Assembly (NCBI GenBank): GCA_004321735.1
Contig: SGZB01000008.1
Span: 1 to 39,315, forward strand
DNA length: 39,315 bases
Source: Flavobacteriales bacterium
GTDB taxonomy: Bacteria; Bacteroidota; Bacteroidia; Flavobacteriales; Flavobacteriaceae
Direction of reading: 5' to 3'
The notes below the pieces were generated by a model, which was given only the letters and a program-made list of their open reading frames with translations, had not been told where the DNA came from and did no database searches. Positions 32,877 through 38,441 of this stretch are shown piece after piece. Position numbers and translations under genes: made by a program. Every line of letters starts with the position of its first letter. The first letter of the stretch is position 1.

Positions 32877-34349
32877 TTATCTTGAATAATTTGGTGACTC
32901 TTTGGTAATTGTAATGTTGTGAGGATGACTTTCGTCTAGCCCTGCTCTAGTAATTTGAACAAAACTTGATTTATTTTTTAAATCATCTATAGTTTTTGCT
33001 CCACAATATCCCATTCCAGATCTAATTCCACCAACAAATTGATACATGGTCTCTACAATAAAACCTTTATATGGAACTCTACCAACAATCCCCTCAGGAA
33101 CAAGCTTATTTTTATCGTCTACATTGGATTGAAAATATCTTTCTTTACTTCCTTTTTGCATTGCCTCAAGTGATCCCATTCCTCTGTAAGTCTTAAATTT
33201 TCTTCCCTCATAAATAATAGTCTCACCTGGAGATTCATGAGTTCCAGCAAGTAATGAACCTAACATGACACAATCAGCTCCTGCAGCAATTGCTTTAGTT
33301 ATATCACCTGTGTGCTTAACTCCTCCATCTGCAATTACTGGAATGTCACTTCCTTTTAAAGCTTTTGAAATATTATGAATTGCAGATAACTGCGGATATC
33401 CAACCCCAGCAATTATTCGTGTGGTACATATTGAACCGGGGCCAATTCCAACTTTAATTCCATCTACACCAGCTTTAGCTAAAAACTTTGCAGCATCTGC
33501 AGTTGCAATATTACCAGCAACAACATCAAGTGAAGAAAATTTTGATTTTAATTTCTTTATTGTTTCCAAAACAGAAATTGTGTGAGCATGTGCTGTATCG
33601 ATAACCACAGCATCCAATCCGGCATTATATAGCATTTCTGTTCTTTCAATCGAATCACCTCCTACTCCAACTGCAGCAGCAACCCTTAGTCTTCCAAATT
33701 CATCTTTATTAGAGGATGGCTTTGTGGTTAATTTTTGAATATCTCTAAAAGTAATTAATCCGATCAACTTGTAATCTTTATCTACAATTGGTAATTTTTC
33801 AATTTTATTTTCTTGAAGGATTATTTCAGCTTCTTTTAATGTTAACTCTTTAGATCCTGTAACAAGATTTTTAGAAGTCATAACATCACCAATTTTTTTG
33901 TCAAGTTGTCTTTCAAACCTCAAATCTCTATTGGTGACAATACCAATTAATTTTTTGTTACTATCAACTACTGGAATTCCACCAATACTGTATTCTTTCA
34001 TGCAGTTTAAAGCATCTGCAACAGTTTTAGATTTAGACAATGTAATAGGATCTAGAATCATTCCGGACTCAGACCTTTTAACTTTTCTTACTTTGTCACT
34101 TTGTTCCTCAATCGATAAATTTTTATGAATTACACCAATCCCACCTTCTTGAGCCATCGCAATTGCCATTTTACTTTCAGTAACAGTATCCATCGCAGCA
34201 GAGACAATTGGAACCTTTAATTGAAGGTTTTTAGAAAATCTAGAATATAATGAAACTTCTGAAGGCAATACTTCAGAGTATGAAGGAACTAGAAGAACAT
34301 CATCGAATGTTAGACCAATTTCTAAAAATTTTGAATTATTTGGAGCCAT
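32877..34349 (-). CDS. guaB: IMP dehydrogenase
   Basis: A 490-residue enzyme oxidising IMP to XMP, the committed step of GMP synthesis. The catalytic Cys is about residue 308 in [13 protein letters not shown]. Tandem CBS domains fill about 90-205, and the active-site flap region reads [20 protein letters not shown]. The start is taken at the ATG at 34349 ([20 protein letters not shown]); the frame extends eight codons further upstream but that part crosses a hairpin and promoter. It appears to head the operon running through the two chaperone genes to ccsBA. Confidence 0.95.
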
Positions 34350-34350
34350 A

Positions 34351-34369
34351 GCAATTAAGAAATAATTGC
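34351..34369 (-). promoter_or_regulatory. Hairpin directly before the guaB start codon
   Basis: GCAATTA and TAATTGC form a perfect 7-bp stem with a five-base loop, ending one base before the ATG. It lies inside the predicted leader and could hide the start codon. Confidence 0.5.
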
Positions 34370-34372
34370 GCA

Positions 34373-34380
34373 CAAATATA
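34373..34380 (-). promoter_or_regulatory. -7 promoter element for guaB (TATATTTG)
   Basis: On the minus strand TATATTTG matches TAnnTTTG exactly, 24 bases before the guaB ATG. No -33 TTG at usual spacing was seen. Confidence 0.5.
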
Positions 34381-34391
34381 AGGATTATGAT

Positions 34392-34871
34392 TTACTTTTT
34401 ATAAAGTTCTTTGAAAATCAGGAAAACAGCTAAAAAATAGCAAACATGTAAGAGTATTCCAGAGATCATTATTACGTAAGTAAACCAACTTATTTCAAGC
34501 CAGAGCATGTAAATTCCACCAAATGTTAAAACAATTGATACAAAAGGCTCTACAATTAGAAAGTTTTTTAATGGATTTGATATATCAGTTTTTGTTAAGA
34601 AGTAACCAATAACTAAGAAAATCAATGACATTGAAAGAATATGAGAATGGACAATATTCAAAATTTCTTTCTCACTTTTTTTAAACTTCATTACTTCTTG
34701 GTTATCTGAAAATTCATTTCCGTTATAGTGTTCTTCAATTCCTATTGGGGTTGTAGTATTGCTGTAAAATAAAAATTTAGTTCCTGAAAAAAAACCAATA
34801 GTCAAAACAATCAGGAAAGTAGATATTAAAAGTTTTACATCTTTTGATAAGTTAGAAAGTGTTGATTTCAC
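34392..34871 (-). CDS. Four-helix membrane protein with helix-located histidines
   Basis: A 159-residue protein starting at GTG (34871). Helices lie near 14-35, 68-92, 100-128 and 130-155. Helix 2 begins with NIVHSHILSMSLIFLVIGYF and helix 4 contains GILLHVCYFLAVF, giving His-x-His and another His that could ligate heme or metal. A loop between helices 1 and 2 (about 36-66) is polar, probably periplasmic. It follows the FMN-binding gene by 9 bases. Together with it, this protein may pass electrons across the inner membrane. The family is not recognised and heme binding is a guess. Confidence 0.6.
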   Translation of the reverse strand: MKSTLSNLSKDVKLLISTFLIVLTIGFFSGTKFLFYSNTTTPIGIEEHYNGNEFSDNQEVMKFKKSEKEILNIVHSHILSMSLIFLVIGYFLTKTDISNPLKNFLIVEPFVSIVLTFGGIYMLWLEISWFTYVIMISGILLHVCYFLAVFLIFKELYKK

Positions 34872-34880
34872 TTTTTAAAA

Positions 34881-35402
34881 TTAATAGAAAAAATTAATAG
34901 AATTTAATTTATCTAAATCAGATAAAAAATAATTGATGGAACGAGTCATAGATTTGACTGAAATGGTAGCTCCAGAAATAGCAGAAATATTTTCTCTGTA
35001 TACATATTTTTTACCACCTTGAGCTCCAGTGAATTGCTTTAGCCATCTGTTACTACTAATTTCACCACCCCAACTTTCTCTGTAAGCAAGTATTTTAATT
35101 TTTTCAATTGAAAGATTATGATCAAGGATAATCATGTAATCAAAAGTTTCAGTCTTACTTGGCGCATTGCCTAAGTATAAATATGATGGTTTTTTAGAGT
35201 CTGGGAAAGTGATTTTGAAAAAATTATTTTCATTTAACGAAATATCAAAATCTATTTCATTAAAATTTATTTCATTCATTTTAAAATCAATCGTGTCATA
35301 GTGTTTTGAAATAACTTTTTTAGACTTATCAATATATCTAGATGGATTGTTGAATGCTGTGATCAAAATAAAAGCTATAACAAAATAAATTAACCTTTTC
35401 AT
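34881..35402 (-). CDS. FMN-binding domain protein (covalent flavinylation type)
   Basis: A 173-residue protein from the ATG at 35402 (MKRLIYFVIAFILITAFNNP), chosen because the longer frame would overlap the porin gene and weakens the signal anchor. The C-terminal half resembles the FMN_bind domain of NqrC/RnfG/NosR-type proteins: IEKIKILAYRESWGGEI, then FTGAQGG and the attachment motif AISGATISVKSMT with Thr about 146. ApbE-type transferases attach FMN there, outside the cytoplasmic membrane. It lies between the porin and a four-helix membrane protein. No ApbE gene is present in the window. Confidence 0.8.
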   Translation of the reverse strand: MKRLIYFVIAFILITAFNNPSRYIDKSKKVISKHYDTIDFKMNEINFNEIDFDISLNENNFFKITFPDSKKPSYLYLGNAPSKTETFDYMIILDHNLSIEKIKILAYRESWGGEISSNRWLKQFTGAQGGKKYVYRENISAISGATISVKSMTRSINYFLSDLDKLNSINFFY

Positions 35403-35412
35403 TCTTAAACTA

Positions 35413-36522
35413 TTAAAAAAACACACCTAAACCCATATTAAATTGACCATAATCATCATCTAATAGTGTTCTTTTAGATTGATAATCCATCTTAAACACA
35501 GTACCACGTGATAAATGATAAGAAAAACCAAAAGTTGTTTCTTTTCTATGAAAATCTTCATTTATAATTAAAGAATCATCAGTTGACTTGTGCGTGTTGT
35601 AATCTTCGTATCTCAAAAACAAATCTAATTTTTGAGTATTTTCCAATGGCAATAAATTAAATGCACCTTCAACGTAATAACCTGAAGCTTTAGAACCTAA
35701 ATCCTTTCCTGAAAATAAATTATATTTTCCAGTATCTGATAAACTAGCAGACACCAATTGTGCTCTTGCTGAAAATCTATTTTTGACATATCTAGCATCA
35801 AAAGCTACCATTGAAAGTCCAACTTGAGATGCATCTATAGATTGATCCGTTGTTTGTGTTTTACCACTGTAGTATCCCAGTCCTAATTTTAATCCTGGCA
35901 ATCCATAATAATCAATTTTAGCTGTGAAATTACCATTACTCCCAACAGATTCAGCACCCTTCTGTCTTCCTTTTCTAATAAGATCTGAACCTCTTAGTTT
36001 GTAGTCACCATCATAAGAAATTGGACCATTAACAATATAAGCCTGATATCTTAGAGATAGTGCATTTGATTTACCGTAAATCCCAAACCCTATTTCTCTC
36101 CATGTTGAAGGAATAATTTTCCCATCAATACTAGGTCTTTCAACACCGTTGAATGTTGTAGGCTCGTGATATTCATTAATTATTCCCATGGGAATTAGCA
36201 TTAAACCTCCTCTTAGATTAAGATTTTCGTTCAAGGCATAATTTAAAAAGGCTTGTTCAACATACACTTCTTTTACATGTTCAAATTCAATTTCAGTAAC
36301 AAATGAAACCCTATCATCAAATTTATATGCGAACAACAAGACTAATCTTTGAACATCAATTTCAGAAACATCATCAGATGGATCATTATAAGTAATTTCA
36401 CCATATCCACCGATAGTCAATCCAGAATCTATTGAGCTGAGATTACCTAGTTGTGTTTCTGAACTATTTTGAGAAAAAACAAATCCTCCAAAAAATATTA
36501 AAAGGATAAAAGTTTTTTTCAT
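35413..36522 (-). CDS. Outer-membrane porin, OprP/OprO-like
   Basis: A 369-residue protein with signal peptide MKKTFILLIFFGGFVFSQ. The rest alternates beta strands and ends in FNMGLGVFF with terminal Phe. Features such as FVTEIEFEHVKEVYVEQAFLNY, LNLRGGLMLIPMGIINEYHEP and PSIDGKIIPSTWREIGFG are typical of the phosphate-selective porin O and P family in Bacteroidota. Phosphate specificity is not implied. It heads a three-gene unit with the FMN-binding and membrane genes. A -7 element and a 21-bp palindrome lie just before its start. Confidence 0.82.
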   Translation of the reverse strand: MKKTFILLIFFGGFVFSQNSSETQLGNLSSIDSGLTIGGYGEITYNDPSDDVSEIDVQRLVLLFAYKFDDRVSFVTEIEFEHVKEVYVEQAFLNYALNENLNLRGGLMLIPMGIINEYHEPTTFNGVERPSIDGKIIPSTWREIGFGIYGKSNALSLRYQAYIVNGPISYDGDYKLRGSDLIRKGRQKGAESVGSNGNFTAKIDYYGLPGLKLGLGYYSGKTQTTDQSIDASQVGLSMVAFDARYVKNRFSARAQLVSASLSDTGKYNLFSGKDLGSKASGYYVEGAFNLLPLENTQKLDLFLRYEDYNTHKSTDDSLIINEDFHRKETTFGFSYHLSRGTVFKMDYQSKRTLLDDDYGQFNMGLGVFF

Positions 36523-36528
36523 TAGACC

Positions 36529-36549
36529 TATTTAGAATGATTTTAAATT
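36529..36549. promoter_or_regulatory. Fur/PerR/Irr-like palindrome at the porin start
   Basis: A 21-bp interrupted palindrome, TATTTAGAAT-G-ATTTTAAATT, 8 of 10 arm positions complementary. It sits 7 bases before the porin ATG, just after the predicted transcript start, the place of a repressor operator. A near-identical copy lies 59 bases away. Confidence 0.55.
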
Positions 36550-36553
36550 ACCG

Positions 36554-36561
36554 CAAATCTA
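36554..36561 (-). promoter_or_regulatory. -7 promoter element for the porin operon (TAGATTTG)
   Basis: On the minus strand TAGATTTG followed by C matches TAnnTTTG, 31 bases before the porin ATG. The palindrome at 36529-36549 lies directly downstream. Confidence 0.55.
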
Positions 36562-36587
36562 ATATAGAATCTTGAAATAAAAAAGCT

Positions 36588-36608
36588 TATTTAGAATTAT
36601 TTTAAATA
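36588..36608. promoter_or_regulatory. Fur/PerR/Irr-like palindrome before the DCC-family gene
   Basis: TATTTAGAAT-T-ATTTTAAATA, 9 of 10 arm positions complementary, identical at 19 of the first 20 positions to the copy at 36529. It ends 28 bases before the ATG at 36637 and would cover the -33 region. Confidence 0.55.
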
Positions 36609-36625
36609 AGGTTTTAAAAAGTTAT

Positions 36626-36633
36626 TAACTTTG
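36626..36633 (+). promoter_or_regulatory. Possible -7 element before the DCC-family gene (TAACTTTG)
   Basis: An exact TAnnTTTG match ending only 3 bases before the ATG at 36637. If used, the mRNA would be essentially leaderless. Confidence 0.35.
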
Positions 36634-36636
36634 AGC

Positions 36637-37023
36637 ATGGAATATGAGGTAATTGTTATTGATGGGTATTGCAATATATGTAGCAAATTCTATCAATTTA
36701 TTGTAAAATATGACATAAACAATAAATATAAACTCTCAGAATTTGATAGTCTTTTTTCTAAGCAAAATAACCTGGATTTAAAAAAAATAAATTCTATTGT
36801 ACTTGTAAAAAAAGACAAATCAATACTTAAAAACTCTAAAGCACTAAAATCAATATTTTACAACATACCTAAACTAAAACCTATTTATTACATATTAAAA
36901 ATTACACCAGAATTTATTTCTGATTTTGCTTACAAAATAATAGCTAACAACAGGTATAGTCTATTTGGAAAAAGAGAATCGTGTTCTATTTCATCTAAAA
37001 AAAACAATAAGTTTATAAACTAG
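36637..37023 (+). CDS. DCC-family thiol-disulfide oxidoreductase-like protein (DUF393)
   Basis: A 128-residue protein from the ATG at 36637; a TTG two codons earlier is less likely. The N terminus VIVIDGYCNICSKFYQFIVK carries the DxxCxxC motif (Cys 12 and 15) that names the DCC family, a thioredoxin-like group. ALKSIFYNIPKLKPIYYILK and a basic end (LFGKRESCSISSKK) follow as in relatives. It has no signal peptide. It is divergent from the porin operon and shares the paired palindromes. Its stop overlaps that of the LysE gene in a CTAG palindrome. Redox function is inferred from the family. Confidence 0.82.
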   Translation: MEYEVIVIDGYCNICSKFYQFIVKYDINNKYKLSEFDSLFSKQNNLDLKKINSIVLVKKDKSILKNSKALKSIFYNIPKLKPIYYILKITPEFISDFAYKIIANNRYSLFGKRESCSISSKKNNKFIN

Positions 37024-37622
37024 CTCAAGAGAATATAAATTGCTATTAATTGAAAAATAATTCCTTGGATAAATTTTGATTCTTTTGATTTTATAAAGTT
37101 TTCAAATTTTGGTTTTAGAAAATTTGAAAAATAAGATATTGTTAAAAAAATTAATGTTGCAATTAACCAAAAAATAAACCCCAATATTAAAAACTGAAGG
37201 TTAACAGCTAAATCATTATGAAATAAAAATGCTGGAAGAAATGCCATAAAAAAAATACTAACCTTAGGATTAAGAAGGTTCATTAAAAGACCTGTAACAA
37301 AACTATTTTTGCCATCATTCCTTTTATTATCACCCTTATTTTTATTTAAAAATTGATTCAGGGCTAAATATGTAAAATATATAAAACCAAAATATTTGAT
37401 AAAATCGAAGTAATCTTGATTTGATTTAATTAAAGCGGAAATACCTAATACTACAAATAATGTATGAATCAAAAGACCTGAGGTTAATCCTATACTCAAT
37501 TTTGCAGCTTCTTTAAAGCCACTAGTTGAACTTTTATAAAATACATAAATAATGTCAGGTCCTGGTGACAACGTTAAAAAGAAGACACTTGTTAAAAAAG
37601 CAAAAAGAACATCGATTTGCAT
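37020..37622 (-). CDS. LysE/RhtB-family amino-acid exporter
   Basis: A 200-residue inner-membrane protein with five or six helices. The family signature is at the N terminus (FFLTLSPGPDIIYVFYKSSTSGFKEA). GLTSGLLIHTLFVVLGISAL and FVTGLLMNLLNPKVSIFFMAFLP are conserved as in threonine/homoserine and related exporters. The actual substrate cannot be read from the sequence. It is convergent with the DCC gene and divergent from the DUF3050 gene. Confidence 0.88.
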   Translation of the reverse strand: MQIDVLFAFLTSVFFLTLSPGPDIIYVFYKSSTSGFKEAAKLSIGLTSGLLIHTLFVVLGISALIKSNQDYFDFIKYFGFIYFTYLALNQFLNKNKGDNKRNDGKNSFVTGLLMNLLNPKVSIFFMAFLPAFLFHNDLAVNLQFLILGFIFWLIATLIFLTISYFSNFLKPKFENFIKSKESKFIQGIIFQLIAIYILLS

Positions 37623-37660
37623 AATTTTTGAAATTATTTAAAAATAAATTTTTTAATAGT

Positions 37661-37668
37661 TAATTTTG
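37661..37668 (+). promoter_or_regulatory. -7 promoter element for the DUF3050 gene (TAATTTTG)
   Basis: TAATTTTG followed by CC matches TAnnTTTG and ends 8 bases before the ATG at 37677, giving a leader of only a few bases. Confidence 0.5.
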
Positions 37669-37676
37669 CCTTTTTT

Positions 37677-38441
37677 ATGAACAAAATAGACAACCTTCTT
37701 TCAGAAATTTCAGAAACTAGAGAGCAATTACTTAAACACAAATTGTATAATAAATTAAATAGTGTTGAGGCAATTTCTAAATTCATGGAAATTCATGTTT
37801 TTGCCGTTTGGGATTTTATGTCATTGGCAAAGTCTTTACAAAATAATTTAACATGTACTGAAATTCCTTGGTACCCAACGGAAGATAGAGTATCGAGAAG
37901 ATTAATTAATGAGATTATTCTTGGTGAGGAAAGTGATGTTGATCAAAAAAATAATCCAGCAAGTCACTTTGAATTATACGTTGAATCAATGAAAAAAATT
38001 GGATCTAGTGCAAAACTAATTGAAAAATTTGTTAGAAAAATTAAAGAAACAAAAGACTATAATTCATCAAAAGAGGGATCAAACCTTCCTGACGCCATTA
38101 TAAATTTTTTAGATTTTACATTTGATACAATTAACACAAATAAATCACACGTAATAGCAAGTGTTTTTACATTTGGAAGAGAAGATTTAATTCCAGATAT
38201 GTTTATCAATATTGTTAAAACGCTCAATGAAAAAAATGAAACTCAAATTTCTGATTTGCTTTATTACCTAGAAAGACATATTGAACTTGATGGAGATGAA
38301 CATGGACCAATGGCTCTAAAAATGATTAGTGAACTTTGTGGAGATGACGCCACAAAATGGAAAGAAGCCACCCTAATGTCAAAGAGAGCTTTAGAGATGA
38401 GAATCAAGCTTTGGGATTTTATCGAAAGTAGCCTAAACTAA
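37677..38441 (+). CDS. DUF3050 family protein (heme-oxygenase-like fold)
   Basis: A 254-residue cytoplasmic protein. The block FMEIHVFAVWDFMSLAKSLQ followed by LTCTEIPWYPTEDRVSRRLI near residues 35-85 is characteristic of DUF3050. FTFGREDLIPDMF (about 160) and LERHIELDGDEHGPMALKMI (about 195-215) supply His and Glu residues typical of iron-binding helical bundles in the heme-oxygenase/TenA superfamily. No activity is established to my knowledge. It is a single gene with its own promoter, convergent with the sulfatase. Confidence 0.85.
   Translation: MNKIDNLLSEISETREQLLKHKLYNKLNSVEAISKFMEIHVFAVWDFMSLAKSLQNNLTCTEIPWYPTEDRVSRRLINEIILGEESDVDQKNNPASHFELYVESMKKIGSSAKLIEKFVRKIKETKDYNSSKEGSNLPDAIINFLDFTFDTINTNKSHVIASVFTFGREDLIPDMFINIVKTLNEKNETQISDLLYYLERHIELDGDEHGPMALKMISELCGDDATKWKEATLMSKRALEMRIKLWDFIESSLN

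Follow-up and report, generated by a model that had tools for sequence, protein, structure and literature searches.

A predicted double Fur operator at the promoter of a flavobacterial porin and FMN-binding protein operon

Two near-identical palindromes bracket the promoter of an outer-membrane porin gene in a 39,315-base stretch of flavobacterial DNA, which was analysed as a whole and is referred to here as the window. Judged from the sequence, they very probably form a double Fur operator on the porin promoter. When enough iron is present, Fur loaded with ferrous iron would bind both sites: box 1, which touches the -33 region, and box 2, whose occupancy would cover the transcription start and the 5' leader. 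The bound protein would shut off the operon encoding the porin, an FMN-binding protein and a four-helix membrane protein, and box 1 would probably also repress the divergent DCC gene. When iron is short, Fur would leave and the operon would be expressed alongside feoAB. The boxes, their conservation, the promoter geometry and the iron genes as other targets of the motif were computed directly; from these we infer that the organism's own Fur binds here, that binding depends on iron and represses the operon, and that DCC is controlled as well. An otherwise unannotated porin/FMN/membrane-protein operon would in this way be linked with the iron regulon by a double operator that is conserved.

The stronger site (putative Fur box 1) is the 23-bp palindrome TTATTTAGAATTATTTTAAATAA at 36587-36609, which abuts the porin -33 region and lies in front of the DCC gene. 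The putative weaker site (Fur box 2) reads CTATTTAGAATGATTTTAAATTA and occupies 36528-36550, between the porin -7 element and the porin start codon; no strand is assigned to either box. Counted by eye, the arms of the 11-1-11 palindrome are complementary at 10 of 11 positions in box 1 and at 8 of 11 in box 2. The repeat cores, TATTTAGAATGATTTTAAAT at 36529-36548 and TATTTAGAATTATTTTAAAT at 36588-36607, are identical at 19 of 20 positions and start 59 bp apart, so that direct checking of the sequence bears out the near-identical repeat reported in a preliminary description of this DNA. The 21-bp unit given there does not hold, as the quoted string (10+1+9) has 20 bases, and the unit is better described as 23 bp. 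In a pattern search, box 1 matched TTATTTANANTNANTCTAAATAA on the minus strand with zero mismatches. Box 2 has two mismatches, a number equal to that of another site in the same genome without evident iron link (G000:C14:14035-14057).

A weight matrix trained solely on porin-promoter boxes from other genomes was used to scan the 39,315-base window. Box 1 ranked first (29.8 bits) and box 2 second (20.2 bits), with the third place at 8.4 bits. When the window was shuffled 300 times with dinucleotides preserved, the top score was at least 20.2 bits three times and never as high as 29.7 bits. Loose counting of the consensus with up to three mismatches gave 16 matches in the window against 11.4 expected, which is not significant, and the loose pattern gave 17 matches across the own genome versus 33 for the reversed control, which is no enrichment. 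Because neither the window nor the own genome has an excess of loose matches, this counting was dropped in favour of the matrix from relatives, and the evidence consists of the two strong sites and their conservation.

The motif has a published counterpart. In the available sections of a study on Riemerella anatipestifer (Flavobacteriales, Weeksellaceae), a Fur box was predicted as ATTTAGAATTATTCTAAAT from promoter sequences, and purified Fur bound fragments with the putative box in gel shift, for which four promoters were selected, including that of hmuR (PMC5609570); these sections show no footprint. The boxes are described there as lying within 100 bp of start codons, with a Fe3+-dicitrate receptor and HmuR among the genes, and -7 and -33 promoter elements are mentioned. 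The core of box 1, ATTTAGAATTATTTTAAAT, is the same 19-bp palindrome, identical to the published consensus at 18 of 19 positions (17 of 19 for box 2). It differs at 1 of 19 positions from ATTTAGAATAATTTTAAAT, which the table in these sections lists together with its reverse complement at RAYM_06185 and HmuR, one site on two strands. The table as available (Table 5) does not contain feoAB, and several of its sites fit the consensus poorly; it also holds no porin/FMN operon and no double site per promoter, whereas the window has both. The classical Fur box, quoted in the same source as GATAATGATAATCATTATC, is likewise a 19-bp inverted repeat at iron-gene promoters, but the half-site of the window type is ATTTAGAAT rather than GATAATGAT. 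Within the open-licence literature, the exact motif string was found in one paper only, no iron control of a porin/FMN operon was found, and a paper on Har of P. gingivalis offered no usable box in its available text (PMC4222909). The Fur motif was thus known already, whereas this instance, the double-operator geometry and the tie to the operon are apparently new in the literature searched.

Further copies of the box were sought in the own genome by pattern, and the matrix was applied to the sites found. The sole other copy with at most one mismatch (G000:C28:11454-11476, 20.9 bits) lies immediately before feoAB, which encodes the ferrous-iron transporter; the search for copies near iron genes suggested in the preliminary description therefore returned a strong one. 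The two-mismatch site mentioned above (16.7 bits) lies between Lrp-like and helix-turn-helix genes, named by eye. It is also present in G004, where the surrounding DNA is nearly identical, and its recurrence is thus uninformative on selection. Three sites with three mismatches on the genome's own contigs (L071-L073) were treated as chance because they lie in or across genes without evident metal role.

The association with feoA extends to other genomes. Stand-alone feoA genes were scored in genomes with Fur. A site of 12 bits or more lies upstream of 23 of the 29, the remaining six scoring 4.9, 5.8, 7.6, 8.1, 8.2 and 10.3 bits, and none of 34 coding-region controls reaches 12 bits (maximum 1.8). 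FeoA domains occur in 35 of the 60 genomes compared, and 30 loci were examined first. Left out were three loci with FeoA domains inside DtxR-type proteins (L147, L148, L149) and two with fused feoAB in genomes that have neither Fur nor DtxR (L120, L123); 21 of the 25 loci kept reach 12 bits. Four stand-alone genes were added, in G040 (25.1 bits), G047 (4.9), G048 (8.1) and G053 (25.1). The feoA gene of G047, a genome with Fur, has no box above background, since 4.9 bits are reached in 23 of 200 shuffles that preserve base composition, not dinucleotides. Genome-wide, loose matches are enriched over reversed controls in G025 (53 vs 24), G029 (23 vs 5), G027 and G028, barely in G037 and G058, and not in G046 (21 vs 21).

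Within the genus, a zero-mismatch box is present in 19 of 23 genomes. Twenty genus box loci were inspected, their gene families being scanned for representatives only. Nine boxes lie at the divergent promoter of a TonB receptor and a FutA-like gene, one upstream of a FutA-like gene at a contig end, two between FutA-like and DUF4856 genes (L174, L182), two between divergent DUF4856 and DUF6607 genes (L181, and L185 at 1501-1523) and five between DCC and hemA; the last is a two-mismatch site inside a gene (L166). Perfect boxes occur at the TonB receptor/FutA-like promoter, before hemA and at the four DUF4856 loci. All NCBIfam matches of the FutA-like protein are below cut-off, and its link to iron comes from its solved relatives, most of which are named as iron-binding proteins (e.g. 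2pt1, E 1.1e-91). The DUF4856 and DUF6607 families, whose function is unassigned, probably fall in the iron regulon. Many genus genomes carry two boxes between DCC and hemA, the glutamyl-tRNA reductase gene (L171 781-879, L270-L273, L275-L279, L281, L282), which suggests that iron controls the first step of haem synthesis.

One Fur-family protein was found in the own assembly (G000:C12:41982-42338; PF01475, E 2.4e-24, over the cut-off); this assembly is 77.7% complete and could be missing a second Fur-family gene. The closest solved proteins are Fur (5fd6, E 1.2e-16). Its best NCBIfam matches are also Fur models (E 3.1e-17 and 2.2e-16), with all its scores under the curated NCBIfam cut-offs. 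Fur is assigned as the regulator because Riemerella Fur was reported to bind promoters with putative boxes of this motif and because the box tracks Fur better than DtxR across genomes.

DtxR was an early leading idea, prompted by a box between DtxR-type and receptor-like genes, and the phylogenetic profile ruled against it; a DtxR/MntR-family metal repressor acting at the boxes is now considered very unlikely. This family is widespread in these bacteria (DtxR-type proteins in 33 of 60 genomes, Fur in 51), and the neighbours of its gene can include ZIP transporter, feo and box-bearing receptor genes. G056 and G043 (L055, L064) carry zero-mismatch boxes in the interval that separates a DtxR-type gene from one that looks receptor-like by eye, and the own genome encodes a 140-aa MntR-like member. 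However, the 19 genus genomes with perfect boxes include 15 with Fur and 2 with a DtxR-type match, in drafts that are 55-87% complete and in which gene absence is weak evidence for any single genome. G037 and G052 have Fur, no DtxR match, and feoA boxes that are kept (13.3 and 16.4 bits), the reported binder in the available text on Riemerella is Fur (PMC5609570), and the 4.1 kb around the own DtxR-family gene and the catalase-peroxidase gene that it adjoins (L150 2708-4028) contain no box above 12 bits. G044 and G057, which have neither Fur nor DtxR, have fused feoAB without a box (-3.0 and -0.4 bits). The position of the MntR-like gene beside the catalase-peroxidase gene suggests a manganese/peroxide coupling. 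In G016 and G003 (L151, L152), a DtxR-family gene likewise lies beside long ORFs that resemble catalase-peroxidase by eye.

A PerR- or Irr-like member of the Fur family, sensing peroxide or haem, is a very improbable regulator as well. The core TTTAGAA-N3-TTCTAAA resembles the rhizobial Irr box, an iron control element with TTTAGAA half-sites, a Fur-family regulator and a haem-synthesis target; hemA is a target in sister species, and the own protein has weak matches to PerR and Irr models in addition to those to Fur. The PerR and Irr matches (best PerR model E 1.4e-13, best Irr model E 1.9e-9, both NCBIfam and below cut-off) are worse than those to the Fur models, with 37.7 bits against a cut-off of 170 and 36.9 bits against a cut-off of 150 for the Irr models. 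Moreover, the identified targets are mainly iron-uptake genes, and no box above 12 bits lies within the 4.1 kb around the own catalase-peroxidase gene, the one peroxide gene covered. Where the preliminary description had left the choice between Fur, PerR and Irr boxes, the motif and the targets support a Fur-family metal regulator, and PerR and Irr are disfavoured by the iron-uptake and haem targets and by the better fit of the Fur models. Its proposal that the porin/FMN operon and DCC share one metal- or peroxide-sensing regulator is retained for metal and for their co-location, probably also for DCC, and is not supported for peroxide by the one peroxide gene covered.

The assignment of both predicted Fur sites to the porin follows from the promoter geometry and its conservation. 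The porin -7 element TAGATTTG (36554-36561, minus strand) is of the TAnnTTTG type, which we take to be the Bacteroidota -7 consensus; it is 25 bp away from box 1 and 3 bp away from box 2. Both boxes bracket the promoter, and the geometry is equal in relatives. As the porin operon was not found in the 22 other genus genomes searched, conservation was tested in other genera. Porin relatives occur in 15 of 60 genomes, the own genome included. Ten genomes outside the genus have a strong porin match (E below 1e-60), and in each of them one or two boxes lie upstream of the porin, a count that leaves out weaker porin paralogues in G025, G038, G039, G055 and G059.

A named species-level genome collection was additionally searched for the porin, and the best 80 of 554 candidate loci were studied, none of which shares more than 200 40-mers with the matrix-training loci. 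By record title, they are mostly Flavobacteriaceae, with a few labelled Bacteroidetes or Cryomorphaceae and one labelled Neomarinimicrobiota. At least 100 bp upstream is available for 76 of these 80 loci, and 75 of the 76 score at least 20 bits. The sole miss, L190, has a wrongly chosen start, and two 26.5-bit boxes are present at the right place, so that all 76 have a box. Of the four loci with less than 100 bp upstream, three still show a box of at least 24 bits and the fourth had 15 bp. A second box of at least 12 bits is found in 67 of the 75 loci with at least 150 bp upstream. As a control, 764 regions upstream of other ORFs in these loci were scored, and 23 reach 20 bits, which is an upper estimate since this control set probably contains true boxes. 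The palindromes, whose conservation in relatives the preliminary description had named as a test, are thus conserved in the 10 genomes as well as in the 76 loci.

TAnnTTTG sits between the boxes in all 69 pairs (68 loci and the window). Its distance to box 1 is 25 bp in 61 pairs, 24 bp in 6, 26 bp in 1 and 5 bp in 1, and box 2 lies 0 to 18 bp away from it. The fixed spacing of box 1 and the looser spacing of box 2 would fit one repressor at the -33 region and a second over the start site. A division of labour that reserves box 1 for DCC and leaves box 2 to the porin is highly improbable. In the window, the box closer to DCC is indeed box 1 and the one closer to the porin is box 2, and the preliminary description had placed one palindrome at each promoter. 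However, ten close loci have no divergent upstream gene that would need box 1, and box 1 stands at the usual 25 bp from the porin -7 element in 61 of 69 pairs. Because relatives without DCC upstream of the porin keep both boxes around the porin promoter, the pair is read as a double operator of the porin, with box 1 additionally facing DCC. Chance AT-rich repeats or a transcription-termination or processing element can practically be dismissed: the GC content is 26% in 36001-38000 and weak pattern matches abound, but the sites are conserved with fixed promoter spacing in 76 of 76 loci, no terminator-like hairpin was found in 36400-36750, and the scores exceed those of almost all shuffles.

The gene divergent from the porin encodes a DCC1-like thiol-disulfide oxidoreductase (36637-37023, plus strand; PF04134, E 3.1e-17), and beyond it lie LysE (minus strand) and then DUF3050 (plus strand). 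A candidate DCC -7 element, TAACTTTG (36626-36633, plus strand), is separated from box 1 by 16 bp and from the DCC ATG by 3 bp; the distance to box 1 differs from the conserved 25 bp on the porin side. A DCC promoter at this element, for which the indications are weak, would imply a transcript with almost no leader. Control of DCC by box 1 is plausible.

The divergent porin/DCC layout was found in none of the best 80 of 554 loci. In all ten close relatives listed, the porin is preceded by a same-strand gene, which in eight is a hydroxymethylglutaryl-CoA lyase gene (named by likeness to that of L269). LysE and DUF3050 lie just past the lyase in L186-L188 (by eye), and in the window DCC occupies the place of the lyase in the opposite direction. 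Elsewhere, a DCC gene is located directly 3' of the four-helix gene (L202, L205, L206, and L160 of G046). DCC is present in 18 of 23 genus genomes, and the genus DCC loci with enough flank have a long same-strand ORF directly upstream. This ORF is a TonB-receptor barrel in four of four tested, and siderophore-receptor models are the best match, below cut-off, in two of two receptors tested. The order in G018 is LysE, HMG-CoA lyase, DCC, receptor, boxes and FutA-like gene (L269, L168), with DCC and the receptor reading away from the boxes; the receptor-DCC genes thus have LysE and HMG-CoA lyase for neighbours, which is the setting of the porin locus. The window DCC may be a remnant of a receptor-DCC unit like that of G018.

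The operon under the predicted Fur operator is composed of three genes on the minus strand. The porin gene (35413-36522; Porin_O_P, PF07396, E 2.7e-6) is followed by that of the FMN-binding-domain protein (34881-35402; PF04205, E 3.6e-7), in which SGAT, presumably the flavin-attachment motif, is invariant in 10 of 10 aligned proteins. The last gene encodes an unnamed four-helix membrane protein (34392-34871) with two invariant histidines (HxH, in 45 of 45 aligned proteins). Among the best 80 of 554 loci, the FMN-protein gene follows the porin in 79 and the four-helix gene is conserved with it in 76; of the others, L209 runs off its end and L190, L192 and L246 have no four-helix match. The operon is followed by guaB (IMP dehydrogenase; 32877-34373, minus strand; PF00478), a conserved downstream neighbour, which sequence likeness places in this order in L154-L156 as well as in 8 of 10 listed close relatives; no iron regulation is claimed for it. 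The four-helix protein was modelled with AlphaFold (pLDDT 89). Its sequence matches no Pfam family above cut-off and nothing in NCBIfam, and its model has no Foldseek match at E ≤ 0.001. Structural alignments of the model (best Z 10.2, to unrelated helical bundles) were uninformative on function, and a Pfam match to myelin proteolipid was ignored because it is below the curated cut-off.

A survey of flavinylated extracytosolic electron-transfer systems links, in its available text, several FMN-binding systems to iron and some to Fur (PMC8238504). The window is alike in having an FMN-binding-domain protein beside a membrane protein, probable Fur control and an iron context. It differs in that the available main text of the survey does not contain 'porin', 'DCC' or 'Bacteroid', and this operon type is apparently not described there (PMC8238504).

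Among the 23 genus genomes, the own genome alone has a FeoA match and the porin. The FutA-like protein is present in 18 of the 23 (one of them with a 36-residue fragment), the own genome not being among these. All 11 of the 60 genomes with a strong porin match also have a FeoA-domain match, in counts that are non-independent by relatedness. These distributions suggest two alternative iron routes in the genus and a link of the porin operon to ferrous-iron uptake. As a tentative proposal, which we consider possible and somewhat doubtful, the operon of porin, SGAT FMN protein and four-helix HxH protein, joined by DCC in some lineages, could be a Fur-controlled flavin electron-transfer module that reduces extracytoplasmic ferric iron and feeds FeoB. 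The own species would then use a ferrous route (porin operon and feoAB), versus a ferric route with a siderophore-type receptor and the FutA-like protein in most sisters.

Interest in the operon would grow if it is a ferric reductase. Porin relatives occur in at least 554 stretches of the species-level collection, of which the best 80 were studied, and a role in ferric reduction is directly testable in cultured genera among these 80, for example Winogradskyella, Tenacibaculum and Cellulophaga. With a sharp, promoter-anchored Fur motif for flavobacteria, iron responses could be predicted from sequence. In G029 (L052 70-1523), a PepSY_TM gene and the receptor-like gene (by eye) that follows it each have boxes upstream; they are a candidate second iron-reduction system under the same motif.
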